From Tautonia plasticadhaerens (GTDB lineage Bacteria > Planctomycetota > Planctomycetia > Isosphaerales > Isosphaeraceae), in assembly GCF_007752535.1 (NCBI RefSeq), contig NZ_CP036426.1:5952001-6016000 (forward strand): 64,000 nt of DNA, in the 5' to 3' direction. Of this stretch, positions 6,476 to 63,088 are shown piece by piece (positions within the stretch are counted from its first letter, which is position 1; every line of letters starts with the position of its first letter). Below the pieces are notes generated by a model. The model was given only the letters and a program-made list of their open reading frames with translations. It was not told where the DNA came from and did no database searches. The translations under genes were made by a program, and so were the position numbers.

Positions 6476-7263
6476 CCCCGGAGCGGTGGATCGTCGAGGC
6501 ATCCTACGCCCTGGCGTGCGGCCTGCCCGGCGGCACGGTGGAGGCGCTGGCCTCGGCAATCCTCGCCTGCCCGGCGGGCTCGCTGCGGTCCGAGGTCGCC
6601 CGGCGGATCGCCCACCACGAGCACCGGGATCTGGCGCTGGCCTTCGTGGACCGGTGGCGGGAGGAGTCCGGGGAGATCGACGCCCGGACGGTCGCCGTGG
6701 CGATCCAGACGGCGGCCCATGCGGAGCGGGCACATCGGGATTCGCAGTCGGTCGAGCCGATCTGGACCGGACCCGACGCCGGGGTCGTGCCGTTCCGCCG
6801 CACCGAGCAGGCGATCCTCCAGGTGCTCGACGCCGCCCGGACCCGAATCACGCTGGTGAGCTTCGCCGTTTACAAGATACCCAACGTGGCGAAGGCCCTC
6901 GTGAAAGCGGCGGGCCGGGGCGTCCGGCTCACCGTCGTCGTGGAGACGCCCGATCGGATCGAGGGCCAGGGCGAATACAGCACGATCCGGGCATTGGGGC
7001 AGGAGGTGGCGGGCTGCTCCACGGTCTATTTCTGGCCCCAGGAGAATCGCACCGTCGGGGAGAACGGCAAGGTCGGCATCCTGCACGTCAAGTGCGCCGT
7101 GGCCGACGGCGAGTGGATGTTCCTCTCCTCGGCGAACCTGACCCGGCAGGCGTTCACGATCAACATGGAGCTGGGGATGCTCGTGCGGGGCGGGTCCATG
7201 CCGAGTCGTGTGGAGCGGCAGTTCGACCAGCTCGTCCACGACGGGCACCTCAGGGAGATCTGA
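6472..7263 (+). CDS. drmC: DISARM phospholipase D-like protein DrmC
   Basis: The 263-residue protein has one PLD/HKD motif, HVKCAVADGEWMFLSSANLT, with the catalytic histidine near residue 205. The region before it (ITLVSFAVYKIPNVAKAL) is the usual PLD strand-helix segment. A single motif implies dimerisation or a degenerate first half. The N-terminal ~95 residues are helical and not assigned. It is coupled to drmB through ATGA. DrmC is the third member of the DISARM core and is often dispensable in tested systems. Position and family agree well. Confidence 0.85.
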   Translation: MTPERWIVEASYALACGLPGGTVEALASAILACPAGSLRSEVARRIAHHEHRDLALAFVDRWREESGEIDARTVAVAIQTAAHAERAHRDSQSVEPIWTGPDAGVVPFRRTEQAILQVLDAARTRITLVSFAVYKIPNVAKALVKAAGRGVRLTVVVETPDRIEGQGEYSTIRALGQEVAGCSTVYFWPQENRTVGENGKVGILHVKCAVADGEWMFLSSANLTRQAFTINMELGMLVRGGSMPSRVERQFDQLVHDGHLREI

Positions 7264-7990: not shown

Positions 7991-9748
7991 ATGTATCAGA
8001 CCGGCGGCACCATCAGGGAGACGCTCCAGGCCATCCAGCAGACGAAGTTCGTCCTCCCGGCGATCCAGCGGGAGTTCGTCTGGAAGCCGGAGCAGATTGC
8101 CCGCCTCTTCGACAGCCTGATGCAGGGCTACCCCTTCGGCACGTTCCTGTACTGGAACGTCGATCGCTCGAACAGCAGCAGGTACAAGTTCTACGCCTTC
8201 GTCTGCAACTACCACGAGCGTGACAACCCCCACTGCCCGCAGCTCCCCGTGTTCCACGAGACGGACCTCAAGGCCGTCCTCGACGGCCAGCAGCGGCTCA
8301 CGGCGCTGAACATCGGCCTCTGCGGCTCGATGGCGTGGCGACTCCCCTACAAGTGGAAGAACAACCCGAACGCCTACCCGGTCCGACACCTGTACCTCGA
8401 CCTTCTGGCCGACGAGGGCGGTGCCGACGAGGGCGGGATGGAGTACCGCTTCGAGTTCCTCACCGAGGAGCGTGCCGGCTCCGCCATCCCAGGAGAGTGC
8501 TGGTTCAAGGTCGGCGACATCCTCGGGATGCAGAGCGGGCCGCCGATGCTGAGGTGGCTCAACGAGCGACTGCCGCAGGAGAGGCTGGACCGGGCCTTCT
8601 CCACGCTCGACCAGCTCTTCCAGGTCGTCCACAACCGGAACCTGATCTCGTACTACGAAGAGAAGAGCCAGAACCTCGACAAGGTGCTCAACATCTTCAT
8701 CCGCATGAACAGCGGCGGGACGGTCCTCTCGTACTCCGACCTGCTGCTGTCCATCGCCGTCGCCCAGTGGTCGGGGGACGCCCGCAAGGAGATCCACACG
8801 CTCGTCGATGAGCTGAACGACACGGGCGAGGGGTTCGCCTTCTCGCAAGACCTCGTGCTCAAGGCGGGCCTCATGCTGGCGGATATCGGCAGCGTGGGCT
8901 TCAAGGTGGAGAACTTCAGCCGGGAGAACATGCAGGCCCTCGAAGGTAAGTGGCCCGAGGTGAAGCGGTCCCTCAAGGTGGCCGTGCAGCTGCTGGCCGG
9001 CTTCGGCTTCCACGAGAAGTCGCTGCGGGCCGACAGCGCCATCCTGCCGATCGCCTACTACATCAACCGCCGAAATCTCGATGGTCACTACGTCACGAAG
9101 GGCGGCTTCGCCCACGACCGTGAGGCGATCCGCACGTGGCTGATCCGCAGCCTGCTCAAGGCGTCGGGCATCTGGGGGAGTGGTCTGGACACGCTGCTCA
9201 CCGCCATCCGGGAGGTCATCGCCGAGCACGGGCAGGACGGCTTCCCGGTGGAGAAGCTCCAGGAGGCGATGGCCAGGCGGGGCAAGTCCCTCATGTTCGG
9301 CGACGAGGAGATCGACGAACTCGTCGAGATGCGGTACGGCGACAAGCGGCTGTTCGCCCTGCTGACGCTCCTCTTCCCGTTCGTGGACGTGACGAACCAC
9401 CACTTCCACATCGATCACGTCTTCCCCCGGTCCCGCTTCACCAGGGCGAGGTTGCAGAGGGCGGGTGTGCCCGAGGGCGACATCGAGGCGTTCAAGGAGA
9501 TGGTGGACTGCCTGCCGAACCTCCAGCTGCTTGAGGGAGCGGAGAACGTCGAGAAGCAGGCCGCAATGCCGTCGGAATGGATCAGCGGGTCGCTCTCGCC
9601 GACCTCCCGGACGAACTACTGCGACAACCACCTCCTCGGCGAGCTGCCCGAGTCGATCGCCGGGTTCCGGGAGTTCTACGAGGCCCGGAGCTGTGCCCTC
9701 CGCTCCCGGATCGTGAATATCCTCGGAGCGAATGCCGCCGAGCCCTGA
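7991..9748 (+). CDS. DUF262/DUF1524 GmrSD-like nuclease
   Basis: The protein has 585 residues. The N-terminal DUF262 domain has FVLPAIQREFVW and the diagnostic nucleotide-binding motif LDGQQRLTAL (about residues 98-107). The C-terminal DUF1524-type HNH nuclease is seen as HIDHVFPRSRF followed by NLQLLEG. This is the architecture of fused GmrSD, a type IV restriction enzyme of modified DNA, and of several anti-phage proteins such as BrxU and SspE relatives. It lies 73 bp after the hypothetical gene downstream of drmC. A type IV nuclease here would complement a DISARM system that attacks unmodified DNA. The substrate is not deducible from sequence. Confidence 0.8.
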   Translation: MYQTGGTIRETLQAIQQTKFVLPAIQREFVWKPEQIARLFDSLMQGYPFGTFLYWNVDRSNSSRYKFYAFVCNYHERDNPHCPQLPVFHETDLKAVLDGQQRLTALNIGLCGSMAWRLPYKWKNNPNAYPVRHLYLDLLADEGGADEGGMEYRFEFLTEERAGSAIPGECWFKVGDILGMQSGPPMLRWLNERLPQERLDRAFSTLDQLFQVVHNRNLISYYEEKSQNLDKVLNIFIRMNSGGTVLSYSDLLLSIAVAQWSGDARKEIHTLVDELNDTGEGFAFSQDLVLKAGLMLADIGSVGFKVENFSRENMQALEGKWPEVKRSLKVAVQLLAGFGFHEKSLRADSAILPIAYYINRRNLDGHYVTKGGFAHDREAIRTWLIRSLLKASGIWGSGLDTLLTAIREVIAEHGQDGFPVEKLQEAMARRGKSLMFGDEEIDELVEMRYGDKRLFALLTLLFPFVDVTNHHFHIDHVFPRSRFTRARLQRAGVPEGDIEAFKEMVDCLPNLQLLEGAENVEKQAAMPSEWISGSLSPTSRTNYCDNHLLGELPESIAGFREFYEARSCALRSRIVNILGANAAEP

Positions 9749-17793: not shown

Positions 17794-19080
17794 ATGTCCG
17801 CAAGCTCAAGTTTGCCTGAATGCCCAGATGGAGAGAACGAGCGAGGAGCTGACGGGCTGGCCGGACTTGACGATGACGAAGTAATCGAGTGTTCGGGTGA
17901 CGAAGAGGACTGCATGATGGGCGACTTCTTCGGGAAGAAGCGGGACTGGTCCAGGTACAAGGACTTCATCCTCGGCTACTACCTCGAACCCTACGTCCCC
18001 AAGGTCAACACCCTGAAGAGGCCCATCCTGGTCGTCGATTGCTTCGCCGGGCGGGGGGAGTTCGGCGACGGGCAGCCCGGCTCGCCGGTCATCATCGGCT
18101 CGACCATCGAGAAATGGCGGGCCAAGGGCGTCCCGATCCGGGGCCTGTTCATCGAGGCCGACCCCGAGAACTATCGCTACCTCGTCGCCGTGCTCGACCG
18201 ATACGGTGAGCATGCCGAGCCCCGGACCGGCACCTTCGACGAGCACCTCCCCGAGATCGCCGCCCTGGCCCGCAACCACACCGTCTTCCTCTACGTCGAT
18301 CCCTACAGCGTCCGGGGCCTGGTCTTCGACCGCATGAAGGCGGTCTACGACCAGATCCGCTCGTCGAGTTCCAGCGTCGAGGTGCTGCTGAACTTCAACT
18401 CGGCCACGTTCATGCGGTGGGCGCTGGCGGCCTTGCAGCGGCACCAGGACATCCCCGCCGAGACGGCCGACGAGCCGCTCGACCAGCTCGAAGACGCCTC
18501 GGCCGGCCCCGTCGAGCTGGCCACGCTCGACGCCATCGCCGGGGGCGATTACTGGAGGGCCATCGCCCTCGACCCGGACCTCGACTTCCCGCAGAAACTC
18601 GGCCGCCTCACCTCGGAGTACATGGGCCGGATGCTGCCGTCGTTCCGGTACGTCGCCAGCTGCGCCATCAAGGCGAAGTATCACCACCGAGTCCCGAAGT
18701 ATCACCTGATCTATGCGACCCGCCACGAGGACGGCCTGGAGTTGATCAACGACGCCATGTGCAAGGCCCGGCGTGAGTTCCTCGGGGCCGAGTTCACGGA
18801 GGGGACGCTCTTCGACCTCACCCCCGATGAGGAGGTGCCGGACCTCTCCGAGCTGCGGAAGGGCCTCCTCGCCCTGGTCCCCGAGGACGGTCGCCTCTCC
18901 CGAAAGGCCCTCCGGCTCAGGGGCCTCCTCGCCCACTTCGGGCGGCACGAAATCAAGGACCACAACGCTGCGATCGGCGACCTGCTCAAATCCGGCAGGC
19001 TTCACAGCGACACCGGCAAGGCCCGCATCAACGACAACGTGCTCCTGGCCAGGGCGCCGTTCATCCCACCGAGGCCCTGA
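17794..19080 (+). CDS. three-Cys-motif partner protein TcmP
   Basis: The protein is 428 residues from ATG 17794. The recognisable family starts at DFFGKKRDWSRYKDFILGYY, followed by a methyltransferase-like glycine loop VDCFAGRGEFGDGQPGSP and the central VFLYVDPYSVRGL. TcmP proteins typically sit beside a cysteine-motif Gp37/Gp68 (DUF5131) protein, as here. The upstream 40 residues are acidic with several cysteines, so ATG 17914 is an alternative start. Its 3' end overlaps that of the neighbouring minus-strand gene by 20 bp. The biochemical role of the family is unknown. Confidence 0.75.
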   Translation: MSASSSLPECPDGENERGADGLAGLDDDEVIECSGDEEDCMMGDFFGKKRDWSRYKDFILGYYLEPYVPKVNTLKRPILVVDCFAGRGEFGDGQPGSPVIIGSTIEKWRAKGVPIRGLFIEADPENYRYLVAVLDRYGEHAEPRTGTFDEHLPEIAALARNHTVFLYVDPYSVRGLVFDRMKAVYDQIRSSSSSVEVLLNFNSATFMRWALAALQRHQDIPAETADEPLDQLEDASAGPVELATLDAIAGGDYWRAIALDPDLDFPQKLGRLTSEYMGRMLPSFRYVASCAIKAKYHHRVPKYHLIYATRHEDGLELINDAMCKARREFLGAEFTEGTLFDLTPDEEVPDLSELRKGLLALVPEDGRLSRKALRLRGLLAHFGRHEIKDHNAAIGDLLKSGRLHSDTGKARINDNVLLARAPFIPPRP

Positions 19081-19921
19081 CCGTCGCCGAGGCGGGGAGC
19101 CGGCGGACCCGCAGGCCGGCGGGCCACTCGTCCCAGTCGCCCGCATGGCCGTCGGCGAACTTCAGCCGCCGCCCGCCCTCGACGACGTGCGAGCCCAGCT
19201 GCTTCAGAAAGTACGGCACGCCCCGCTCGCCGCATCGATCGATCAGGGACTCGGCCCAGGCGATGTTGAATGGCCGGGCGCTGCGGCCCGACTCGCCGCC
19301 CTGGATCACCCAGTCGATCCGGGGCAGCCAGGCCGACAGGTCGATGGCCTCCACCTGCGGCTCGACGGAGAGGAACCGGACCGTCCGCTCGTCGCCGACC
19401 CGGACGAGGTGCCGGATGCGGCACGTGGTTGCCTGCGACGTGACGCTGGTGCCCGCCCACAGGTTCTCGGGCCACTCGATCGCTTGATCGTCGAGCCAGC
19501 CCGAGAACTTCGCCATCCGGTCGGGCCGCTTGGTCAGCCAGAGCCAGCGGTGCCGACGGCCCCGCTCGCCGATCACATTCGGGATGATCTCGTCCCGCAG
19601 GAAATCGAAGGGCACCGCCGCCGAGAGCGAGTCGCTCATGTCCGAGACGAAGATCAGCCGGGGCATCCCGTCGAGCCAGGGCTTGTCGGCCCTCCGCTTC
19701 CCCGCCAGGTCCGACCAGCCGCACGCCTCGGCGACCCGGCCGGGGAAGGGGGTGACTTCCTCGAACCGGGGCGCATAGCCGGGCGTGACGCCGCCGAAGC
19801 GGACGTGGAGCGTGCCGGCGTAGCAGGTCTTCCGCTGCGCCCCCCAGATCTCGCAGCCGTCGCAACCCATCGTCGGGTTGACGGTCGAGTCGCACCACTG
19901 GATCTTGGTCTTGCTGCTCAT
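19061..19921 (-). CDS. phage Gp37/Gp68 (DUF5131) family protein
   Basis: The 286-residue protein has the N-terminal KIQWCDSTVNPTMGCDGCEI, a three-cysteine motif resembling a radical SAM or Fe-S site. Family blocks RLIFVSDMSDSL, HRWLWLTKRPDRMAKF, LWAGTSVTSQ, RFLSVEPQ and WVIQGGESG follow. The adjacent TcmP gene supports this call. The family appears in phages and integrative elements and may modify nucleic acids, but its reaction is unknown. Confidence 0.82.
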   Translation of the reverse strand: MSSKTKIQWCDSTVNPTMGCDGCEIWGAQRKTCYAGTLHVRFGGVTPGYAPRFEEVTPFPGRVAEACGWSDLAGKRRADKPWLDGMPRLIFVSDMSDSLSAAVPFDFLRDEIIPNVIGERGRRHRWLWLTKRPDRMAKFSGWLDDQAIEWPENLWAGTSVTSQATTCRIRHLVRVGDERTVRFLSVEPQVEAIDLSAWLPRIDWVIQGGESGRSARPFNIAWAESLIDRCGERGVPYFLKQLGSHVVEGGRRLKFADGHAGDWDEWPAGLRVRRLPASATVRASVG

Positions 19922-23990: not shown

Positions 23991-24316
23991 CCGAGGCGGT
24001 CCTGGACCGAGCCCCTCGGGCCTCTTTCGCCGCACTTCGCCCCGACGCACCGGGGCCTTGATCACCCGATGCTTGCGGCATTCCCAGTCTCGCAAGACGA
24101 TCAGGGCCACCGGGCCAACTCGCTATCCCGATCGCCATCCACAGCCTTGGAGCGGATGGTGAGTGAGGCATCGAGGTCATAGCGGTTATCAACGGGCGGA
24201 TCGATCCGGCTTTCCGACTTTCCGGCGATTATCAACCGATTGGCGACGAGCCCCGGTTGATAACGATGGCTGAAAGGCGGGCCGGGTGCTGATGCGGCCC
24301 CCGGCCCGCCCCGTGC
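23991..24316. repeat. intergenic region with GTTATCAAC repeats
   Basis: This 326-bp region lies between the converging replication and methyltransferase genes and has no gene. It carries GGTTATCAAC (24184-24193), GATTATCAACC (24227-24237) and the inverted GGTTGATAAC (24255-24264). A fourth partial copy, GGTTGATAAT, is at about 25199. Spaced short repeats next to a replication gene could be iterons or operators. Confidence 0.5.
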
Positions 24317-25168
24317 TCACGCCCCGACGAGCCACGAATCCATGCGGCGTCGGTACTCGGCCTGGGCGTCCCGCATCCGCCGCAGGGCCAGATGATAATA
24401 GGGCTCGTGGACCTCGAACCCGAGGTGGCGGCGGTGGTTCAGCAGGGCCATCTTGCACGTCGTCGCCGCCCCGCAGAAGGGGTCGAGGATGAGTTCGCCG
24501 GGGCGGGACCAGGAGACGATGTGCTCCAGGGCCATCTTCTCGGGCATGAGCGCCGGGTGGCCCTTGAGGGCGTAGTGGTCCTTCGTGGAGACGTTGCGGC
24601 CCACGGCGTAGCTCCATACAGCCCCCCGGACGCCGAAGGCTGGGACTGTCTTCGCTCCACCTGCCTTCTCCAGGAAGCCGTCAGTCCGCCGCTTGGTGAA
24701 GGCTTGAGTTTTGCCTGCGTGGCGATTCGGTCGGTCCCGGAGGAGTTGTAGGGTCTTCGGCTTACCCTTGGAGAGGATGATGGCGTATTCGAGGGGATGG
24801 CCGTAGCGGTTCCTCCCCGGCCAACGGCAGCCGATCCGATCCATCACCATCGTGTGATGGAGCCGGAACCCGACCTCCTGGAAGTAGAGCCGCTGTCGGG
24901 AGCTGTCGCCCGTCTCCCCCTTGCCTCGGGGGGCCTGCTCCCGGACGACCCAGACGACCACGCCGCCCGGCTTGGTCAGCCGGAACAGCTCCTCGGCGAC
25001 GGCCCGGAACTTGGTGAAGTCGAAAGCCTGCCCCCCGTAGGTGCGGATCTCGCCGTAGGGCGGCGAGGTCAGGGTCATGTCGATGCAGCCGTCGGGCAGC
25101 CGCCGCATCCCATCGACGCAATCGCAGCGGATGATCCGGTCGAGGTACTTCGGTGCCGTCTTCTTCAC
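24317..25168 (-). CDS. beta-class DNA methyltransferase 1
   Basis: The 283-residue protein has catalytic motif IV TSPPY (residues 34-38) before SAM-binding motif I DPFCGAATT (about 229-237), the beta-class order. The SPPY form is typical of N4-cytosine or N6-adenine methyltransferases. The central variable part (about 125-215) would be the target-recognition region. It starts at GTG 25168 with a GGAG upstream. It is the last of three tandem paralogues sharing the C-terminal RRMRDA(Q/H)AEYRRR block. No restriction endonuclease is adjacent. Confidence 0.85.
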   Translation of the reverse strand: MKKTAPKYLDRIIRCDCVDGMRRLPDGCIDMTLTSPPYGEIRTYGGQAFDFTKFRAVAEELFRLTKPGGVVVWVVREQAPRGKGETGDSSRQRLYFQEVGFRLHHTMVMDRIGCRWPGRNRYGHPLEYAIILSKGKPKTLQLLRDRPNRHAGKTQAFTKRRTDGFLEKAGGAKTVPAFGVRGAVWSYAVGRNVSTKDHYALKGHPALMPEKMALEHIVSWSRPGELILDPFCGAATTCKMALLNHRRHLGFEVHEPYYHLALRRMRDAQAEYRRRMDSWLVGA

Positions 25169-25225
25169 GATTGGTTCTCCAGGTTGATGGTGTCGGGCAG
25201 GTTGATAATGGCGGAGCTTCCACGC

Positions 25226-25250
25226 CCCTCGGGGGCCAGTCCCCCGAGGG
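25226..25250 (-). terminator. GC-rich hairpin between methyltransferases 1 and 2
   Basis: CCCTCGGGGG (25226-25235) pairs perfectly with CCCCCGAGGG (25241-25250) across a 5-nt loop. It follows the stop of methyltransferase 2 and precedes methyltransferase 1. There is no U-tract, so it may be a weak terminator, attenuator or RNA-stability element. Confidence 0.5.
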
Positions 25251-25277
25251 CTTCACGGCCACGACTTGCAGCTCGGC

Positions 25278-26129
25278 TCAGGCCCCGAGCAGGTCGGTGT
25301 CCAGGCGGCGTCGGTACTCGGCGTGGGCGTCCCGCATCCGCCGCAGGGCGATCTGGTGGTACTGCGGGTTGATCTCGAAGCCGAGGTAGCGGCGGTGATT
25401 GAGGAGGGCCATCTTGCAGGTGGTCGCCGCACCGCAGAACGGGTCAAACAAGAGGTCGCCCGGATTGGACCAGGACAGGATGTGGTCCTCGGCCATCCGC
25501 TCGGGCATGAGGGCCGGGTGGTCGAAGGCGTAGCGGTCCCTCGTGGTCGTCCGGCCCCCCGCCGGGTAGGTCCAGACCGCCGAACGGACGCCGAGGGCCG
25601 AGATCGGCCTGCCCTTCACCGACGGCAGCGGGCGCTCCCGCTGGGCCAGCGGCCGGGGGGCATCCGTGTAGACCAGGCCCGCCTGACGGTTGGGCTTGTC
25701 CCGGAGCAGGTTGACGGTCCGGGGCCTGCCCTTGGACAGGATGAAGGCGTACTCCAGCGAGTCGCCGTACCGGACCCTGGCGGGCCACCGGCTGCCGGAC
25801 CGGGCCATGATCATCGTGTGATAGACCTTGAAGCCGACCTCCCGGAAGAAGAGCTTCTGCCGGGCGCTGGTGCAGCTCTCGCTGTGATCCCCGATGCCGT
25901 CGGCGACGACCCAGGCGACGACACCGCCGGGCATCGTGATGCGGTGCAGCTCCTGGGCGACGGACCGGAAGGTCTCGTCGTCGAATGTGTGTCCGCCGTA
26001 GGCCCGGACGTGATCGTAGGGCGGGCTGGTGACGGTCAGCGGGATGCAGTCGCCGGGCAGCGTCCGCATGCCTTCCACGCAGTTGCCCAGGACGATTCGG
26101 TCGATCAGGCTCAGGTCGCTCTCGTTCAT
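25278..26129 (-). CDS. beta-class DNA methyltransferase 2
   Basis: The 283-residue paralogue starts at ATG 26129 (MNESDLSLIDRIVLG). It has motif IV VTSPPYDHV near residues 32-40, RPNRQ-like KPNRQAG in the middle and motif I DPFCGAATT near the end. The C-terminus RRMRDAHAEYRRRLD is nearly identical to the two neighbours, while the middle differs, suggesting distinct target sequences. An upstream in-frame extension to 26201 crosses a hairpin and is not used here. Confidence 0.85.
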   Translation of the reverse strand: MNESDLSLIDRIVLGNCVEGMRTLPGDCIPLTVTSPPYDHVRAYGGHTFDDETFRSVAQELHRITMPGGVVAWVVADGIGDHSESCTSARQKLFFREVGFKVYHTMIMARSGSRWPARVRYGDSLEYAFILSKGRPRTVNLLRDKPNRQAGLVYTDAPRPLAQRERPLPSVKGRPISALGVRSAVWTYPAGGRTTTRDRYAFDHPALMPERMAEDHILSWSNPGDLLFDPFCGAATTCKMALLNHRRYLGFEINPQYHQIALRRMRDAHAEYRRRLDTDLLGA

Positions 26130-26172
26130 GGATAGCCTCGTTTCATTCGGTGAAGACGAACCCTCTACGTCT

Positions 26173-26193
26173 CCTCGGAGTCCATCTCCGAGG
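26173..26193 (-). terminator. hairpin between methyltransferases 2 and 3
   Basis: CCTCGGAG (26173-26180) pairs perfectly with CTCCGAGG (26186-26193) around a 5-nt loop. It lies downstream of the stop of methyltransferase 3 and upstream of the ATG of methyltransferase 2. It parallels the hairpins in the other two gaps of this gene row. Confidence 0.45.
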
Positions 26194-26222
26194 GGCCTCA
26201 CTGCGACGACGGGGTGACCGGC

Positions 26223-27122
26223 TCAGGCCCCGGCGAGCCAGGCGTCGAGCCGCCTGCGGTACTCGGCGTGGGCGTCCCGCATCCGCCGCACGGCGAGCCG
26301 GTAGTACGGGCGGTGGGCCTCGAATCCGAGGTAATGCCGGTGGTTCAGCAGCGCCATCTTGGCGGTTGTGCCGCTGCCCAGGAACGGGTCGAGGATGAGG
26401 TCACCGGGCCGGGACCATGAGACGATGTGGTCCGTCGCCATCGCCTCGGGCATCAGGGCCGGGTGCTCGAAGGCGTACCGATCACGGGTCGTGCCCCCGA
26501 AGCCGGCCAGGTACTCCCAGACCGGCCCCTTGAGGCCCATGGCTGGGACCGTCTTGAACCGGGGCGACATCCGCTGCCCACCATCCCGACGCCTCGCTCG
26601 GTACTGGTAGAGCTTGCCGGCGTGCTTGTTCGGCCTGTCCCGGAGCAGGTGGACCGACCGGGGGCGTCCCTTCGAGAGCACGAAGGCGTACTCGACCTTC
26701 CCGTAGTGGTTGACGCCGAACCAGCGGCCTCCCGTGCGGGCCATGACGAGGATGTCGTGGAGGCGGAAGCCGATCTCCTGGAAGTGGAGGGCCTGGCGGA
26801 AGCTCGTCCCCGTGTGGCCTCCCCTGATCTCGTCGGCGACGACCCAGACGACGACACCGCCGGGCATCGTGACCCGCCACAGCTCTCGGGCGACCCGCCC
26901 GAACGTCTCGTGGTCGAACCGGTGCCCGCCGTACACCCGGTGGCCGTCGTAGGGCGGGCTGGTGAGCGTCATGGGGACGCAGCCGTCCGGCAGCATCTCC
27001 ATCCCGGAGACCGCATCGACGCAGCAGATCCGGTCGGTAAACTCCCCGCCCTCCACGATGGCGGCGCCGGGCGGGGCCTCCGGCACGTTGGTGGCAACTC
27101 CCGACACGTCGGACTCGAACAT
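26223..27122 (-). CDS. beta-class DNA methyltransferase 3
   Basis: The 299-residue paralogue starts at ATG 27122 with GGAGG just upstream. Motif IV is TLTSPPYDGH and motif I is LDPFLGSGTTAKMALLNHR, with a conventional FxGxG here rather than the FCGAA of the other two. The C-terminus RRMRDAHAEYRRRLD is shared. The N-terminal 35 residues are extra relative to the paralogues. It is the first of the three in transcription order. Confidence 0.85.
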   Translation of the reverse strand: MFESDVSGVATNVPEAPPGAAIVEGGEFTDRICCVDAVSGMEMLPDGCVPMTLTSPPYDGHRVYGGHRFDHETFGRVARELWRVTMPGGVVVWVVADEIRGGHTGTSFRQALHFQEIGFRLHDILVMARTGGRWFGVNHYGKVEYAFVLSKGRPRSVHLLRDRPNKHAGKLYQYRARRRDGGQRMSPRFKTVPAMGLKGPVWEYLAGFGGTTRDRYAFEHPALMPEAMATDHIVSWSRPGDLILDPFLGSGTTAKMALLNHRHYLGFEAHRPYYRLAVRRMRDAHAEYRRRLDAWLAGA

Positions 27123-27281: not shown

Positions 27282-28106
27282 TCAGGCGGCCTCGGCCACC
27301 GGGGCGACATCGCCCTTGATCCGCAGGAGCGTGGCCATGGCCCGGTCGATCAGGGCGTGGGCCTCGTCGCCCAGGTCGCCGCCCCGGATGTCCCGCTCCA
27401 GGGTCTCCAGCCGCCGAGCGATGATCAGGAGCGTCTCTGTCGCCGGGGGCGTGGTCGGGTCGGCCTGGGGCTCCTCCACCTCCCCGTCCTGGCCCGCCTC
27501 GGACAACTCCGGGCCGGGGGCCGTGGCGGACTCCTTGCCGTCCTGATCGGAAGCCAGCCGGAGGTCGAGCGACTGCGGGGGCGTGTCCTCGGTGGAGGCC
27601 GGGCTGCCCGACAAGGGGGCCGTGCCGACCGCCTCGGGGGCCTCGCCGCCCCCGGCATGGCCCTGCTGCGGCTGCACCTGCTTTGGCTTGGTGATGCCGT
27701 ACTTCTTGAGGGCCTGGGTGCGGGTCAGCCCGGCGACCGCCTCCTCGCCCTCGGCCTCTTCGTAGAGGCGGATCGCCTGCCAGGCCGAGGTGATCGAAAT
27801 GCCGTTGTCCCTCTGCCAGCGGGTCCAGGCCCGATTGCCCTTGCCCTTGAGCTTCTTGCGGGCGCACCAGAGCGCCCGACCGGCCCGGTAGAAGGTGACC
27901 GTGGAGCGTCGGGCCAGGCCCACCGCCTCGGCCTGGAGCTGGCGGGAGTCGCCGATCTCCTTGCTGGCGATGGCCGCCAGCTCCTCCAGGGTCATCCCTT
28001 CCAGGGCCGCCAGCCCCGAATCTTCACGATCCGAAGAAATCCTTCCGTCGATCGCCCGCCCCTCGCACTCACGCCCGTGCCCACCAGTACTGGAGTTGTT
28101 CACCAT
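27282..28106 (-). CDS. DUF3102-like DNA-associated protein
   Basis: The 274-residue protein starts at ATG 28106 (GGAGG upstream). The core is TFYRAGRALWCARKKLKGKG then WTRWQRDNGISITSAWQAIRL. That matches DUF3102-like plasmid/ParB-related proteins, in which a helix-turn-helix-like region follows a long helix. The N-terminus is low-complexity, and the C-terminal ~120 residues are acidic, Pro-rich linker ending in a helix. It heads the row of methyltransferases, so it may regulate or target the element. The open frame extends upstream through repeats but is unlikely to be coding. Confidence 0.6.
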   Translation of the reverse strand: MVNNSSTGGHGRECEGRAIDGRISSDREDSGLAALEGMTLEELAAIASKEIGDSRQLQAEAVGLARRSTVTFYRAGRALWCARKKLKGKGNRAWTRWQRDNGISITSAWQAIRLYEEAEGEEAVAGLTRTQALKKYGITKPKQVQPQQGHAGGGEAPEAVGTAPLSGSPASTEDTPPQSLDLRLASDQDGKESATAPGPELSEAGQDGEVEEPQADPTTPPATETLLIIARRLETLERDIRGGDLGDEAHALIDRAMATLLRIKGDVAPVAEAA

Positions 28107-28122
28107 CGCCCTACCTCCGGGA

Positions 28123-28500
28123 TTCGAGCCCGTCGTGGGGTCACTCGCCCCGCCGACGGTCGTGCCCGGTGGTGTCATCCCCTCTCGGTGAGCTGTGGTC
28201 CCAGTCGTGATCCCCTCGCATCCCGTCCCGCTGTCGTCGCTGCTCATGTTGCGAACCATCGTCCGTCCCTCCAAGGTTCGAGCCCGTCGTGGGGTCACTC
28301 GCCCCGCCGACGGTCGTGCCCGGTGGTGTCATCCCCTCTCGGTGAGCTGTGGTCCCAGTCGTGATCCCCTCGCATCCCGTCCCGCTGTCGTCGCTGCTCA
28401 TGTTGCGAACCATCGTCCGTCCCTCCAAGGTTCGAGCCCGTCGTGGGGTCGTTCGCCCCGTCCGACGGTCTAACCCGGTGGTGTCAATGCTCATTGGCGA
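28123..28500 (-). repeat. 154-bp tandem repeat, two copies plus partial third
   Basis: Unit boundaries at 28123, 28277 and 28431 give a 154-bp period. Two copies are essentially identical and the third is partial and diverging. On the minus strand each unit contains GGAGGG followed by ATG and codons resembling the start of the DUF3102-like gene (MVRNMSSDD versus MVNNSSTGG), plus the GGTGGTGTCA element. The period is not divisible by 3, so it is not an in-frame protein repeat. It looks like a duplicated leader/promoter segment. Confidence 0.8.
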
Positions 28501-28555
28501 GTCGTGATCCGAGTTGCGATCTTGCAGCTCTCGATCGTGAAGGCGGGCCGTGCCC

Positions 28556-28693: not shown

Positions 28694-29653
28694 CTACCCG
28701 CCGGAACGATCGAGGTCTCGCTTGCGACGGTAGAGCGAATCGGGGCTGCTCCCCACAAGCCGATTCCACTCTGCATCCCGCTGGGCCTTGTCGTCGGGGA
28801 ACCGCTCGAACAGCTCTTGGGCGACCTTTCGCTCCCTGGCGAGCCGGGCGGCCCGCCCTTCGTGCCTGGGCCGGTCCTCGCCCACGAGCCTCTTCAGGCT
28901 CGACCGCACCAAGTCCTGCCAGGTCCGGTTCGCCTTGCCATGGAGGTCCAGGCGGTAGTCCTGCCACGCCTTGTTCATGGCCCGCAGGTCGAGCCGGTGG
29001 TCGCAGGCACGGGTCTCGGCGATGACGAACTCGGCGACTTCGAGGCATTCTCCCGGCGACACGTCCTCGAAGCCCTTGAGGGCCTGCGACCTCATGAAGG
29101 CGGCGATCATCTCGTCGCTCGGCTCGTGCTCCAGCCGGGCGACCCGGCTGGCCACGGCGTCGGCCAGCGGGTCACGACCCAGCGGCAGGTTGCTGATGGC
29201 GATGACGCCTCCGCTGAACTCGAACGACTTGCGCTCGTCCCTGGTCGTGTAGGTGACGGTGCGGCCCTGGCCCGGCCTGCCGCCGAGGGCGGCCATGAGG
29301 ATCTGGAGGGCGGCGTCCTGGCCGAACAGGGTATGGATATCGTCCAGGACGACGACGTGCTCGGGGTGCTCCTCCAGGAGGCAGTAGAGCCCCATCGGGC
29401 TCATCCGGCTGTTGCGGTACGTCCACGGCGTATCGAGCCGCTCCAGCGTCTCATGCACGGTGAAGGTCTTCGACGACCCCGGCCTGCCGACGAGGTAGGC
29501 CCCGGCCTGATAGCGGTCGGCCACGCTCCGGGTGCGGTCCCGGATCAGGTCCAGCATCGCCTCGAACTCGTCGAGGCATGCCCGGTCCTCCTCGGAGAGG
29601 ATCAGGGTCCGGCCTGACTGCGTGATGATCTCGCTGCTCGTCGTCGTGCTCAT
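28694..29653 (-). CDS. AAA-type ATPase, paralogue of the 20-21 kb gene
   Basis: The 319-residue protein has a P-loop LVGRPGSSKTFTVHETL, in which Ser replaces the usual Gly before Lys, and Walker B HVVVLDDIHTLF. FSGGVIAISNLPL follows as a sensor region. The second half is helical with a basic, charged end (EGRAARLARERKVAQELF). Its similarity to the ATPase at 20006-21196 marks a pair, one near each end of the replication/methylation block. It is the first gene of the minus-strand row leading to the methyltransferases. Whether the altered P-loop still hydrolyses ATP is unclear. Confidence 0.65.
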   Translation of the reverse strand: MSTTTSSEIITQSGRTLILSEEDRACLDEFEAMLDLIRDRTRSVADRYQAGAYLVGRPGSSKTFTVHETLERLDTPWTYRNSRMSPMGLYCLLEEHPEHVVVLDDIHTLFGQDAALQILMAALGGRPGQGRTVTYTTRDERKSFEFSGGVIAISNLPLGRDPLADAVASRVARLEHEPSDEMIAAFMRSQALKGFEDVSPGECLEVAEFVIAETRACDHRLDLRAMNKAWQDYRLDLHGKANRTWQDLVRSSLKRLVGEDRPRHEGRAARLARERKVAQELFERFPDDKAQRDAEWNRLVGSSPDSLYRRKRDLDRSGG

Positions 29654-29952
29654 CGGCCCTCCTCTGTCTCTGGATTTGTCCCACCTGACGACCCGCCCGG
29701 TGGTGTCAGCCGACGTAGACCGGCTGCGATCCCAGTCGTGATGTCCCCAGGAAGGGTGGGGCGAATCGACCGCCTGAATCCCCGGCGTATCGACTGTCCG
29801 ATCCGTGAGGCGGTCGCCCCCTTCACGGCCTGCCCGGTGGTGTCAGTCCCTGCCGACGGGTCGTGGTCCGAGTCGTGATCCGCCCCCTGGCCACGCCGCC
29901 GGGGGTCGATTACGATGGGTGAGTTCACGAGGCTCGTGCGAGGGGCCGTTCG
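29654..29952. promoter_or_regulatory. divergent intergenic region with two GGTGGTGTCA elements
   Basis: This 299-bp region lies between the minus-strand ATPase and the plus-strand XRE-like gene. It contains CCCGGTGGTGTCA at about 29697-29709 and 29833-29845. Each is followed about 15-20 bp later by a pair resembling GTCGTGGTCC and AGTCGTGATCC. The same composite element occurs three times at 28.15-28.52 kb, so five copies mark the control regions of this cluster. Confidence 0.55.
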
Positions 29953-30378
29953 ATGGAGAACGAGCGGAAGTGGCGGAAGATCCGGTTCGCCAGGCACCTG
30001 AGCGGCCTGATCAAGGGCACGGGGCTGAGCCGCACCCAGTTCGCCGAGCGGGCGAAGGTGCCCTTCCCCTGGCTCCAGCGGGCCACGACCGAGGGAATCA
30101 CCCGGTTGGACTGCCGGGGCCGAGAACACCTGGACAAGATCGCCCGATGGTTCGGCGTCAACGATGTGGACCGGCTCTGGGACCGGGACTTCGTGGCGCC
30201 GCCGCCCTGGAACACGAGGGAGGCCCGAGCGGGCCGGTTCGCCGAGGACTTGAGGCGGCTGGTCCTCGAACGGGGCGAGGACGCCGAGCCGGTCAGGACC
30301 GTGCTGAGGCTGATCCGGGAGGCCGGAGGGCCGCAGGACGAGGATCGACACGACGTGGAGACCGCCGCCCACGCCTGA
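29953..30378 (+). CDS. XRE-like helix-turn-helix regulator
   Basis: The 141-residue protein has a helix-turn-helix region LIKGTGLSRTQFAERAKVPF then WLQRATTEGITRL, and IARWFGVNDVDRLW as the last core helix. These features resemble XRE/Cro regulators. It is divergent from the ATPase gene and preceded by the repeated control elements, so it is a candidate regulator of this cluster. Its 3' end overlaps the methyltransferase on the other strand by 86 bp. Confidence 0.65.
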   Translation: MENERKWRKIRFARHLSGLIKGTGLSRTQFAERAKVPFPWLQRATTEGITRLDCRGREHLDKIARWFGVNDVDRLWDRDFVAPPPWNTREARAGRFAEDLRRLVLERGEDAEPVRTVLRLIREAGGPQDEDRHDVETAAHA

Positions 30379-31231
30379 TATAGAGGCTGTCGGTCATCGG
30401 CAGGGCGGCCTCGCCGTTGAGTCGGTCGAAGGGGCTGACACCGTTGTCGAGCAGCAGGTGCTCGTCGTAGAGGTCGTTCGGCACGTCCACCGTGCGGTCC
30501 TCGTCCCCGAGGAAGCCGTTGAGCGACAGCAGGGAATCTCCCCGCTGGCCCCGAAGCCAGGCGAAGAACTCCGGGAAGTCGATCATGCCGGAGTAGTACT
30601 TGCCGTCCTCGTTGAGATACGGCGGGTCGAGGTACAGGAGGTCGCCGGGAGCCGACGAGACCTCCCGGTAGTCCCGCACGGCGAAGCGGACCGGCCTGGT
30701 CCCCAGCCTACGCCACCAGTCCGCCAGGACGGCCTCGACCGTCTCGGGGTCCATCCCCGGCCTGGCCCCGTGGAAGCCGGAGTTGAACAGGCCGTCCCGG
30801 TTGAAGCGGACCAGGCCGTTGCGGCAGGTCCGCAGGAGGAAGAAGAAGAGGTAGGGGTCGCCGGTGCGATTGAACCGGTCCCGGACCTCGTAATAGCGGG
30901 CCTTCCCCTGGGATCGGAGCGTGGCCCAGCCCTCGGCGTACTTGCGGACCAGGCCGTCAGGGTCGTCCCGGACGACCTGCCAGAGTTCGATCAGCGACAC
31001 GCAGGTGTCGCCGCACTCGATGCGATCGACTTGGATGTCGCTGCCGAGCAGCTCGTAGAGGACGGCCCCGCCGCCGAGGAAAGGCTCCTGGTAGGTGGCG
31101 ATCCGGCGGGGGAAGTGCTCGACGATCCGCCTGGCCTGACGCCGCTTGCCGCCCGTCCATTTGACGAGGACGTGCTGGAGGTGGGTCTTCTCGCTCGGCT
31201 CGGGATCGTCCGCTCTCCCCATGGGGAGCAA
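30293..31231 (-). CDS. D12-class (Dam-type) DNA adenine methyltransferase
   Basis: The 312-residue protein shows alpha-class order. SAM motifs KWTGGKRRQARRIVEHFP and EPFLGGGAVLYELL come first, then catalytic LLYLDPPYLNEDGKYY near residues 188-203. This is the Dam family that methylates N6 of adenine, often in GATC, although the target here cannot be read from sequence. Its C-terminal ~25 residues overlap the XRE-like gene and look like readthrough. It lies between the integrase and the regulator. Confidence 0.85.
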   Translation of the reverse strand: MLPMGRADDPEPSEKTHLQHVLVKWTGGKRRQARRIVEHFPRRIATYQEPFLGGGAVLYELLGSDIQVDRIECGDTCVSLIELWQVVRDDPDGLVRKYAEGWATLRSQGKARYYEVRDRFNRTGDPYLFFFLLRTCRNGLVRFNRDGLFNSGFHGARPGMDPETVEAVLADWWRRLGTRPVRFAVRDYREVSSAPGDLLYLDPPYLNEDGKYYSGMIDFPEFFAWLRGQRGDSLLSLNGFLGDEDRTVDVPNDLYDEHLLLDNGVSPFDRLNGEAALPMTDSLYIRRGRRSPRRVDPRPAALRPPGSASARS

Positions 31232-31284: not shown

Positions 31285-32781
31285 TCACAGGTCCGCCGAA
31301 TCGCCCCGATCCGCCGGCTGGATCTGCGTGATGACCTGCGAGCGTAGCCACGCCAGCGCCTCGAAGAAGATCTCCTCGGACGGCGTAACGTAATGTTTCT
31401 CCCCCAGCGACTTGGGCGAGTGGGCCAGGAAAAAAGGGTAGAACCGGCCGTAGTCCTTGTGCTTCTCCAGGATGTCGGCGGAAGTCTTCCTGAAAACCTT
31501 CAGCGGCTTGTCGATTCCGACCCGCTTGCGGAGGTTGCGGTACGCCTGGGCGATGAGGTCGTATCGGTCGAGGTCGCCGTCGGCCGCCGTATACTTGACC
31601 AGGGGGTTGCCGTCGTCCGAGAGCAAGACCCTCTCCCCGTGCCGGTTCCCGAACCGGGCGAGCAACTCCAGCGTCTCCGGCCACAGCTGGTAAGTGACCA
31701 CCAGCCCGCCCTTTCGCCGCTTGCTCCGCCTCCTGGTGATGACGCCCCGCTCCCAGTCCACCTCCGACGGCTTCAGGTCGCTGATGTCCGACTGGTACAT
31801 CCCGCAGTTCAGCATCAGCAACAGGAACAGCCTGGTCCGCTCCGAGTACCCGTCGCACCCCTCCAGGAGCCGACGCACCTCGTCATTGGTGAAGCGGGGG
31901 ATCGCCTTCGGCGTGTCGTCGAAGGTGAAGTCCCGTGACCGGATGTTCCCCGGAAGTGGGATCAAGTCCAGCTCCGCCATCCGGCTGATGAAGTTCCTTG
32001 CGGCCCCGAAGAGGGACCGGGCATACGCCGCCGAGAACCGGCCCGACCCGATCTGGGCACAGAGCCATCCGTGGTAGTCCCGCAGCCTGGGGGCGGTGAC
32101 CTCGGCGATGTCGGTCCCCGGCCTGATCCAGTCCCGGAAGACGGCGACGTTCCGCTCATAGGCGTCCACCCGACTCGCCGAGATCTTCCCTGCGACGTGG
32201 CGGGAGCGTTGGAGACGCACCCATGCCTCCACCTGGCCGCCGACCGTCCGCTCCGGCGGGGCGGGTTCCGGCCCGATCTCCTCCACGAGCCGGCGGAGTC
32301 GCTGCTCCCGGTATTCGGGGGCCATCTCGCCCGAGAACCCCTGACTCAGCACCAGGCTGATGACGTGGGCCGGGATGCCCTCGCCCGCCTCCAGCCGGGC
32401 GAGGGCCGTAGCGGAGGAAGGGGTTGCGGCGGCCCCCGGCGGCGGAACCGCCCCTTCCACGCTGGCTCGGTCGAGGATCTCCAGCACCTTGCGGGCGGCG
32501 TCACCCTGCTGCTCCAGGCGGCGGAGGTCGCCGATGGAGTAACGCCCGGCGATGTCCCGGATCGTGGCCGAGGCCGGATCGAGGGGCGTGGCGGTCGGCC
32601 GGGATCGGGTCTCCAACTCCGACTCCCTGGCCTGCCACCAGGCATTCGCCGCCTGGTAGCTCGCCTCCTTCGTGGGCTCGACCCCCAACTGTCGGCAGGA
32701 GACGGAGTAGTTCTTCCCCCGGTGCCACTTCATCCACCCCCGGCGGGCGGGCACCCAGGTCATGAGGTACGTGCGGGGCAT
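31285..32781 (-). CDS. tyrosine recombinase/integrase
   Basis: The start at ATG 32781 (MPRTYLMTWVPARRG) is chosen because a homologous remnant at 63 kb begins at exactly this Met. The SAM-like N-terminal domain is around WIRPGTDIAEVTAPRLRDYH. The catalytic domain has RTRLFLLLMLNCGMYQSDI, where an Arg/Glu pair is usual, then FRKTSADIL, PFFLAHSPKSLGEKHY as the R/H/Y region. Motif spacing is unusual but typical of planctomycete integrases. It probably moves the 1-33 kb element. Its upstream DNA carries a TTGTAAA cluster. Confidence 0.8.
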   Translation of the reverse strand: MPRTYLMTWVPARRGWMKWHRGKNYSVSCRQLGVEPTKEASYQAANAWWQARESELETRSRPTATPLDPASATIRDIAGRYSIGDLRRLEQQGDAARKVLEILDRASVEGAVPPPGAAATPSSATALARLEAGEGIPAHVISLVLSQGFSGEMAPEYREQRLRRLVEEIGPEPAPPERTVGGQVEAWVRLQRSRHVAGKISASRVDAYERNVAVFRDWIRPGTDIAEVTAPRLRDYHGWLCAQIGSGRFSAAYARSLFGAARNFISRMAELDLIPLPGNIRSRDFTFDDTPKAIPRFTNDEVRRLLEGCDGYSERTRLFLLLMLNCGMYQSDISDLKPSEVDWERGVITRRRSKRRKGGLVVTYQLWPETLELLARFGNRHGERVLLSDDGNPLVKYTAADGDLDRYDLIAQAYRNLRKRVGIDKPLKVFRKTSADILEKHKDYGRFYPFFLAHSPKSLGEKHYVTPSEEIFFEALAWLRSQVITQIQPADRGDSADL

Positions 32782-32790
32782 GGTCACCAC

Positions 32791-33220
32791 CCGGCTTGCG
32801 TCGGGGATGACTGTACAGGTGACCGGAAGGTTTGTAAAGGGATTTGTAAAGGAGAGGGGCGAGCAAAGGGGAGGGGCTTTACAAAAACCTCAAAAAACAC
32901 CGACAAATTCGATATCAAGCGGCATTTCCAGTGCCGCACCTTCGGCCTCTCGGTCACCTCTCCGTGTCGCGAAAACCCTGATCTTACAGTGACTTGGATC
33001 AATCTTCCTTGTAAACCCAGGCGGACCTGGGAGAATTGTAAACCGGAGGTTCGCTTGAGCCCCTACTTTACAGGCACCCTGAGAAAAATTCCAGTATTTA
33101 CCCCCTAGCTGCCAGTAACCATAAGTCTTTTGCATCATGCACTGATGAATGCCGAATCTTCGAGAAGCCAGAAGTCGCCGCATCGCTCGATCGCGGACTT
33201 CGATGATGAAGTGCATGTTA
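32791..33220. promoter_or_regulatory. region upstream of integrase with TTGTAAA cluster
   Basis: This 430-bp AT-richer region has no gene. TTTGTAAA occurs at 32831-32838 and 32843-32850, TTTACAAA at 32878-32885, TTGTAAAC at 33009-33016 and 33036-33043, and TTTACAG at 33067-33073. These repeats lie directly upstream of the integrase and may be recombinase/excisionase arm sites or operators. The region may also include an attachment site, but no tRNA or direct repeat was found here. Confidence 0.5.
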
Positions 33221-34524
33221 GTGCAACTTCGTTTCTGTAATTTCCCGGCCCAGCGGCGGGTCAGTCCGGCTCCATCGTCAGGTACCTGCGGTTCGTCTCC
33301 CACTCCTCGCTGATCTCCATGGCCACGGCACTGACGAGGCGCAGCGCCGACGCCTCGTTGGGGAACGGCCCCGCCACCCTCGTCCGCCGCTTGGGCTCCT
33401 CGTTCAGCCGCTCCAGCATGTTGATCGTCCTCAGTCGACGCCGGTGCGACGGCGGCGGGGCGAAGGCCGCCAGCCCCTCCGGCACGTTCTGCTCCAGCCA
33501 CTCGGCCGGCCTCGGGGCCCTGGCCCGATGCCTCTTCACAGCGATGTCGAGTTGCCGCTCGACCTCGGCCCGATACGGGGCGTCGAAGGCCGCCCGCGGG
33601 CTCGCCACGACCTCCTCCCGCATCGAGGGCCTGGGCGCGAAGGCCATGGCGTTCTCGATCAGGTGGAACTGACACCGCTGGCGCAGCACGCCCGTCGGCC
33701 GGGCGGCCGGCGCCTCCTTCGACCCGGCGTGGTCGTCGGCGACGACGAGCTTCACGCCGTGCAGGCCCCGGCCCGCCAGCGAGGCGAGGAAGCCCCGCCA
33801 GAGCGCCTCGGCCTCCGACGGCGAGACGCTCACGCCGGGGATCGACCGCTTGCCCCGCGGGTCGATGCCGATGGCCACCAGGACCGCACAGGAGCGGGCC
33901 CTGGCCGCCGTGCCGGACTTGCTCTTAGCGGGCGTCCAGGATCAAGTAGGGTGTCTCGCCGATCGGCCGGGCCCGCCACTTCTCCAGTTCCCCGTCGAGG
34001 GCCTCGGCGGCCCGGCTGACCTGCGAGCTTGTGACCTCAAGGCCGCGGGGCTTCTCCGTGATGGCGGCGACCTCCCTGGTCGAGACGCCCTGCACGTCCA
34101 TCTCGGCCACTGCCAGCTTCAGGGCCCGCTCGCTCCCGATCCCCTTCCCCAGGGCCGAGGGGTAGGACTCGACGCCTCGGGTCTGGGGGACCTCGACGGT
34201 CAGCGGTCCGATCCGGGTGTGGAACGGCGGGGTCCTGAACCCGTTGGCGTGGCCGGTGCGGTGCTCGGACCGCTGGTAGGGTGCGGCCACGAGGGCGTGG
34301 GCCCGCTCGACCATCATGACCTCGTTGAGCAGGACGGTGACGGCGGAGGCGAGGCCGTCGCAGCCGTGCTCGGCCAGCAGTTCCGCGATCTGGTCCAGGG
34401 CGGTCGTCGGCATCGGGCGGGTCATCGTCGGTCGGCCTCCTTGGTGTTGGTGGGCACCTCCCAAGGGAACCGGCGGTGGCCCGCCGCTTCGAGACCGGGC
34501 GAATTTACAGAAGAGATGATGCAC
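33221..34524 (-). mobile_element. degenerate IS256-family insertion sequence
   Basis: This is a 1304-bp element bounded by imperfect terminal inverted repeats. The left end begins GTGCA at 33221 and runs through TTTCTGTAATTT. The right end reads GTGCATCATCTCTTCTG on the reverse strand from 34524. No target duplication is evident. It contains a broken mutator-type transposase. Confidence 0.7.
33261..34425 (-). pseudogene. IS256 (mutator) transposase, broken by stop and frameshift
   Basis: The N-terminal part starts MTRPMPTTALDQIAELLAEHG and continues EVPQTRGVESYPSALGK to YLILDAR, then a TAA stop. The usual DARYEKVR follows one codon later, and a frame change is needed to reach VAIGIDPRGKRSIPGVSVSP. 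The rest (LHGVKLVVADDHAGSKEA; RCQFHLIENAM) is the catalytic region, ending at 33261. Both a nonsense and a frameshift mutation indicate an inactive element. Confidence 0.75.
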
Positions 34525-34609
34525 TACCATGGAAAAGGACCGCGTACGTCTCAACAATTGCCGGATGTAAGCGGCCGGAACATTCCAATGTCACCGGAAG
34601 GATAGCGCC

Positions 34610-62906: not shown

Positions 62907-62910
62907 CTAA

Positions 62911-63062
62911 GCCTTCCACCAACGGTTAGCGACCTGCCAGGAGCCCTGCTTGGTCGGTTCGGCGCCGAGTTGTCGGGCCGAGATAGTGTAAAGCTTCCCA
63001 CGGTACTTCTTGTATCAACCCTTGCGGGCGGGAATCCACGACATCAGGAGCTTGTGTGGCAT
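62911..63062 (-). pseudogene. N-terminal remnant of an integrase related to the 31-33 kb gene
   Basis: ATG 63062 reads MPHKLLMSWIPARKG, then TGA, then YKKYRGKLYTISARQLGAEP and TKQGSWQVANRWW, ending at the IS701 element. It aligns with the start of the intact integrase (MPRTYLMTWVPARRG; KNYSVSCRQLGVEPTKEASY). The Trp of the intact copy is replaced by a stop here. The C-terminal bulk is missing because of the IS insertion. Confidence 0.75.
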
Positions 63063-63088
63063 GGTCTGCAAACCGTTTTTGCTGACCG

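Follow-up and report, generated by a model that had tools for sequence, protein, structure and literature searches.

Tandem paralogues of an orphan DNA methyltransferase in a tRNA-Ser(GGA)-associated island of the planctomycete Tautonia plasticadhaerens

Multispecific phage DNA methyltransferases allow one element to serve several target sequences by means of several recognition regions in one protein, whereas the orphan methyltransferases of the phage family phrog_67 (found in cyanophages and in phages of Anabaena, Bacillus and Enterococcus) nearly always occur as a single gene per record. Orphan methylases of phages and mobile elements have already been described (PMC10333322), including the "roving" methylases of the Bacteroides fragilis group, which are also type II orphans on mobile elements or prophages and whose duplicates are reported to be near-identical copies. 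Here we analyzed a 64,000-nt stretch of the Tautonia plasticadhaerens chromosome (contig NZ_CP036426.1, positions 5,952,001 to 6,016,000; hereafter the window, whose coordinates are used unless a genome or locus is named), in which three tandem methyltransferase paralogues, M1, M2 and M3, lie near a chromosomal integrase. They have family, size and motif order in common with the phrog_67 enzymes but form a tandem trio beside an integrase; unlike the Bacteroides duplicates they are diverged, and unlike the multispecific phage enzymes each is encoded by its own gene and has a single recognition region. The trio represents the enlargement, at one locus, of a gene type that has precedents in phages and mobile elements. 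A literature search found no other tandem diverged methylase trio, although such a search cannot prove that none exists. On balance, we slightly favor the interpretation that M3-M2-M1 are tandemly amplified orphan methylases with which a mobile element integrated at tRNA-Ser(GGA) modifies its own DNA as an anti-restriction measure.

Anatomy and origin of the methyltransferase trio

The three genes are as follows (ORF, open reading frame).

24317-25168, minus strand: M1, beta-class amino-methyltransferase of 283 aa with a GTG start, TSPPY (motif IV) and DPFCGAATT (motif I); PF01555 E 6e-27
25278-26129, minus strand: M2, beta-class amino-methyltransferase with TSPPY and DPFCGAATT; ORF open from 26201, likely ATG at 26129; PF01555 E 3e-28
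26223-27122, minus strand: M3, beta-class amino-methyltransferase with TSPPY and the canonical DPFLGSGTT; ORF open from 27206, likely ATG at 27122; PF01555 E 6e-27

All three reading frames are intact and co-directional, and their scores against PF01555 (N6_N4_Mtase; 95.5, 99.7 and 95.5 bits) exceed the curated Pfam cut-off of 26.7. The order of motif IV (TSPPY), recognition region, motif X and motif I is that of the beta class. PADLOC assigns M1-M3 best to an orphan-methyltransferase model (E 1e-65, 3e-68 and 2e-61), and the top PHROGs match is phrog_67, DNA methyltransferase (E 2e-38 to 8e-44). Pairwise identities of 57-61% across the whole proteins rule out a chance likeness, and RRMRDA[Q/H]AEYRRR, the block at their C-termini, hardly varies among them. 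The initial annotation, which had described three tandem beta-class paralogues with TSPPY ahead of motif I, a near-identical C-terminal RRMRDA block and a motif I of two types (FCGAATT in two copies, FLGSGTT in one), is therefore confirmed in these respects by the PF01555 matches, the identities and the open frames.

In the host genome, M1-M3 are the only three strong copies, six further matches being weak (E 9e-17 or worse). A search for relatives returned 14 loci among genome contigs and 10 among viral contigs (loci and genomes are given our L and G numbers). Phage relatives were found in 157 records (160 places), nearly always as one gene per record, and the annotated phage neighborhoods (7 of the 8 loci examined) contained no restriction enzyme, one neighbor being a putative VRR-nuclease. 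At E 1e-30, matches were present in 3 of 45 genomes of the order (own genome counted) and in none of the three other genomes of the genus searched; at E 1e-40, they were present in 8 of 392 genomes of a phylum sample (own genome counted). Comparison of synteny at the genus level yielded scattered partial matches and nothing more. Two adjacent matching genes were detected in another planctomycete (G196, locus L047) and in L012. In a tree of 42 rows, the trio forms one clade (support 83/84) in which M1 groups with M3 (96/82), and the tandem pair of G196 forms a separate clade (100/100); since the trio and this pair each have a clade of their own, tandem amplification has occurred more than once. 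The trio shares a common origin with moderate clade support, and the tree suggests that it was probably amplified at this locus. Recent whole-gene conversion was considered and rejected, as 94-101 of 147-157 same-residue codons are identical, moderately above the 75-79 expected.

Near duplicates or fragments (L021, L025, L029, L031 and L048) were left out of the underlying 45-row alignment, and the second L015 match, L023 and L036 were additionally left out of the tree; the proteins of L010 and L012_1058 (~680 aa) were trimmed to 285 aa. L014 and L048, which have identical match scores and are apparently one contig (G033), were counted once, and the L049 methylase is broken by unread bases. 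The L010 gene and the second gene of L012 carry a fused extra stretch with DPPYG that resembles a second methylase domain; fused relatives of this type come from a metagenome-assembled genome labelled Nealsonbacteria, which is perhaps mis-binned.

Recognition region, motif I and modified base

The motif VIII-X region, which contains the presumed target recognition region, is the least conserved part in all three pairs, with 37-46% identity within the trio versus about 62-67% elsewhere; by contrast, the pair L010/L012_1058 is 91% identical in this region and 81% elsewhere. At same-residue sites, identical synonymous codons exceed expectation in both flanks (141 of 212 with 109.6 expected and 113 of 167 with 85.1 expected; pooled, 254 of 379 with 194.7 expected) but hardly inside the recognition region (42 of 78 with 38.2 expected), these counts being sums over the three trio pairs and hence not independent. 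This pattern lends weak support to the core and the recognition region having had separate histories. The trio resembles enzymes with different targets, but divergence at this place is usual in the family; three specificities, as proposed in the initial annotation, are plausible.

The motif I variant GAATT occurs in 6 of the 45 aligned rows, namely M1, M2, L011, the first gene of L012, L014 and L036, and in the L011 and L014 stretches the GAATT-bearing gene is the sole family match. The variation noticed earlier is thus real in the trio but not special to this locus, and the idea that GAATT is a unique or dead motif was rejected on account of its recurrence at these four other loci. Its persistence there suggests function rather than decay.

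With regard to the modified base, an AlphaFold model of M3 (built from 19 sequences; mean pLDDT 81) matches MboIIA, CcrM, RsrI, PvuII and the rotifer N4CMT with Z scores of 22-25, the beta-class matches over M3 residues 27-294 reaching 24-25; because adenine and cytosine enzymes match the model alike, the fold leaves the base unsettled. A bacterial N4-methylcytosine (m4C) methylase captured by the bdelloid rotifer Adineta vaga, N4CMT (8s9m, 8s9n and 8s9o), is the top Foldseek match of the model and also the closest solved relative of the trio by sequence (8s9n, E 2e-18, followed by TTHA0409 and CcrM in a search of PDB sequences). Both have SPPY, whereas their identity is only about 22-27% and the rotifer enzyme, unlike the trio, carries a chromodomain fusion (PMC8885841). 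The same study gives SPPY as the motif of most bacterial cytosine-N4 methyltransferases and shows that the rotifer enzyme requires it (PMC8885841). The presence of SPPY points to M1-M3 probably being cytosine-N4 (m4C) enzymes.

The tRNA-Ser(GGA) island and its defence genes

The features that define the island are listed below.

31285-32790, minus strand: tyrosine integrase of 501 aa, 59% identical to the L049 integrase
32920-32965, minus strand: right attachment site, with the 5' half (nt 1-44, 32920-32963) of tRNA-Ser(GGA) in a direct repeat
24068-24094: weak attachment-like sequence of 27 nt, 85% identical to the L049 attachment site (E 0.008 and 0.002), a candidate left end
1011-4607, plus strand: DISARM gene drmA
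3023-6475, plus strand: ORF containing drmB
6472-7263, plus strand: drmC

The integrase adjoins an attachment repeat that contains a tRNA fragment, as is characteristic of tRNA-integrated elements. No attachment sites were found by a direct-repeat search confined to the window, and a tRNA search then placed the right end. An integrase relative (48%) in G042, a genome of the same genus, adjoins an intact tRNA-Ser(GGA), which, when used as a query in the T. plasticadhaerens genome (G000), detected an intact copy at C1:5874200-5874289 and nt 1-44 at 5984920-5984963. The half-tRNA of the window belongs to a 46-nt direct repeat whose other copy, at the intact tRNA, is identical (32920-32965 and genome C1:5874246-5874291), which places the right end of the element at 32.9 kb. 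A second half-copy (nt 1-39, 95%) is present at genome C1:6016565-6016603; this copy and a degenerate integrase piece at 62907-63068 are relics of an integration event that took place earlier at this tRNA. No capsid, terminase or portal was identified among 25 of the 42 families assigned to 31 of the 62 genes predicted on the left side, or among the 19 proteins of the window that were compared with PHROGs.

Class 1 DISARM consists of drmD, drmMI, drmA, drmB and drmC. The first two lie just left of the window and complete the set (L092:11889-18363 with window 1011-7263), drmC being 17 kb from M1, and the island further holds an ArdC fragment and another PF01555 protein (L092:7085-8491). No endonuclease, and therefore no adjacent cognate enzyme as in type II restriction-modification systems, was recognised among the nine proteins on the cassette side, from 21.1 to 32.8 kb, that were compared with Pfam, PADLOC and PHROGs. 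The initial view that the trio lacks a restriction enzyme is accordingly true of the cassette but not of the island, which carries the DISARM set, and the count of four modification genes, given there for the element, is too low for the island, which adds DrmMI and the other PF01555 protein. Next after the DISARM genes is a candidate defence gene of the HEC-05 type (7991-9748). The gene at 17794-19080, which resembles a three-Cys-motif partner protein, adjoins a DUF5131 gene (together 17794-19921), and both are candidate defence genes according to PADLOC; a 71% identical DUF5131 gene and a weaker relative of the 17794-19080 gene occur near a methyltransferase in L014/L048.

Islands with related integrases at tRNA-Ser(GGA) were observed in three planctomycete genomes (G000 C1:5874200-6016603, G033 C134:17660-49985 and G042 C56:20292-114924). 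The G033 island spans 32.3 kb and contains counterparts of the integrase (59% identical), of an AAA protein (56%) and of the N-terminal domain of ArdC (71% across 127 aa) found in the present island; a small regulator-like gene, an upstream gene and a methylase are likewise common to both. ArdC is an anti-restriction protein, and the G033 copy matches the fragment in the present island. The G033 island also encodes matches to a PLD_Helicase/HmaA-type helicase, HmaB, HmaC and GajA. The G042 island spans 94.5 kb with its 3' part displaced, and one of the 36 proteins scanned, out of 48 predicted with a length of at least 200 aa, matches type IIG enzymes. The site is likely an integration hotspot for defence and anti-restriction islands, as seen in these three genomes without a control for the usual frequency.

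Possible roles of the array and its neighboring genes

In the favored interpretation, one ancestral methylase of a phage or mobile element was probably copied twice in place, with the catalytic core kept and the short recognition region diverging, most likely to give up to three target sequences, to which the D12-class enzyme encoded nearby would add a fourth. Such marks would most likely shield the DNA of the element from restriction upon entering a new cell or meeting other restriction systems, a hiding role of the kind suggested in the initial annotation. Several observations weigh against this interpretation. Low identity in the recognition region is the norm of the family: among 62 pairs with 60-70% identity elsewhere (pairs not independent; L036 and L049 left out), 56 are below 0.50 in the recognition region, trio included, and 6 are at 0.55 or more, and the trio (0.37, 0.45 and 0.46) lies near the top of the divergent group. 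Hence the targets of the trio could overlap, and the alignment of central regions proposed in the initial annotation does find this region to be the most diverged part, but to a degree usual in the family. M1 and M2 lose the second Gly of FxGxG, a replacement that might reduce their activity. The methylated base is also uncertain because the PF01555 domain, according to PMC8885841, has switched repeatedly between N6-methyladenine (6mA) and N4-methylcytosine (4mC). On the left, the element may start at the intact tRNA, which would make it 110.7 kb long, or at the weak site at 24068-24094, which would make it ~8.9 kb long if that site is a decayed attachment site; no transfer genes were identified. 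Finally, no restriction system that the marks would block was identified in this analysis, and many methylases of mobile elements are silent according to PMC10333322.

Other explanations were weighed against the same evidence. A role in the epigenetic regulation of the element itself (its excision, its copy number or transcription from the repeat-rich region at 28.1-29.9 kb) instead of shielding appears unlikely: although an unknown-family upstream gene is co-directional with the methyltransferase here and in L011 and L049, direct repeats lie upstream of two cassette genes, and the D12 methyltransferase of L047 carries a fused regulator-like domain, three diverged paralogues would exceed the needs of regulation, and phage relatives sit among replication, nucleotide or structural genes. 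Loss of function or redundancy, with one target common to all copies or with M1 and M2 inactive through GAATT, is distinctly improbable in our view. The missing second Gly and recognition regions that are still 37-46% identical on a common scaffold speak for it, but all three genes are intact, GAATT recurs in L011, L012, L014 and L036, and synonymous identity exceeds expectation outside the recognition region and hardly inside it. We likewise give little credence to a dispersed restriction-modification system, in which the trio would provide the modification halves and other loci of the host or island, DISARM among them, the restriction activity. The complete set from DrmD to DrmC on the same island and the Hma-type and GajA genes (G033) and type IIG enzyme (G042) at the same tRNA are compatible with it; however, the DISARM set is already equipped with the methylase DrmMI, drmC is 17 kb away, and the cassette-side scan recognised no endonuclease gene.

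Returning to the self-modification set, a broader and more doubtful possibility is that planctomycete islands carry an evolvable methylase array, in which one orphan methylase of the phage type would be amplified in tandem, in place and recurrently; with the core kept similar and the recognition region free to change, a single element would gather several specificities and defeat several restriction systems simultaneously. If the targets differ, the trio would be a simple natural case of a mobile element widening its modification repertoire through tandem duplication, as well as a clean set of close paralogues with one variable region for learning how the very short beta-class recognition region specifies a site. 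Planctomycete methylomes seem to have received little attention so far.

The remaining features around the trio are the following.

25226-25250: perfect hairpin with 10-bp arms, between M2 and M1
26173-26193: counterpart hairpin with 8-bp arms, between M3 and M2
27282-28298, minus strand: unknown-family gene upstream of M3 and co-directional with it; true start probably internal
28109-28521: direct repeats with a 154-nt unit and a 65-nt family (the latter also present at 29679-29880), located upstream of the genes at 27282 and 28694
28694-29653, minus strand: ATPase-like protein of phage family phrog_1250, with relatives near methyltransferases in L013 and L051
29953-30378, plus strand: small protein, putative regulator, related to a protein beside the L049 integrase
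30293-31231, minus strand: D12-class (Dam/DpnM-like) adenine methyltransferase, PF02086 E 2e-26; nearest DpnM (2dpm)

Homologues of the 27282-28298 gene directly precede the methylase gene in L011 (E 3e-23) and L049 (E 5e-12). Its protein matches no Pfam family, and only the L013 counterpart is assigned to one (DUF3102); the upstream gene and primase-like gene of L047 showed no homology with those of the window. The repeats contain the exact 13-mer CCCGGTGGTGTCA, whose five copies in the window are confined to 28109-28521 and 29679-29880, and they could possibly be operators or an origin. The product of the 29953-30378 gene is also related to the N-terminus of the L047 D12 methyltransferase. 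The Dam-type enzyme annotated earlier at 30.3-31.2 kb proved to be a D12 methyltransferase by its PF02086 match; it is Dam/DpnM-like, and GATC is a candidate target. Near the attachment site, a Mutator-family transposase is split into two ORFs (33261-34557), and between the convergent primase-like gene and M1 there are three copies of GTTATCAACSG (24185-24264), one with a mismatch and two inverted.

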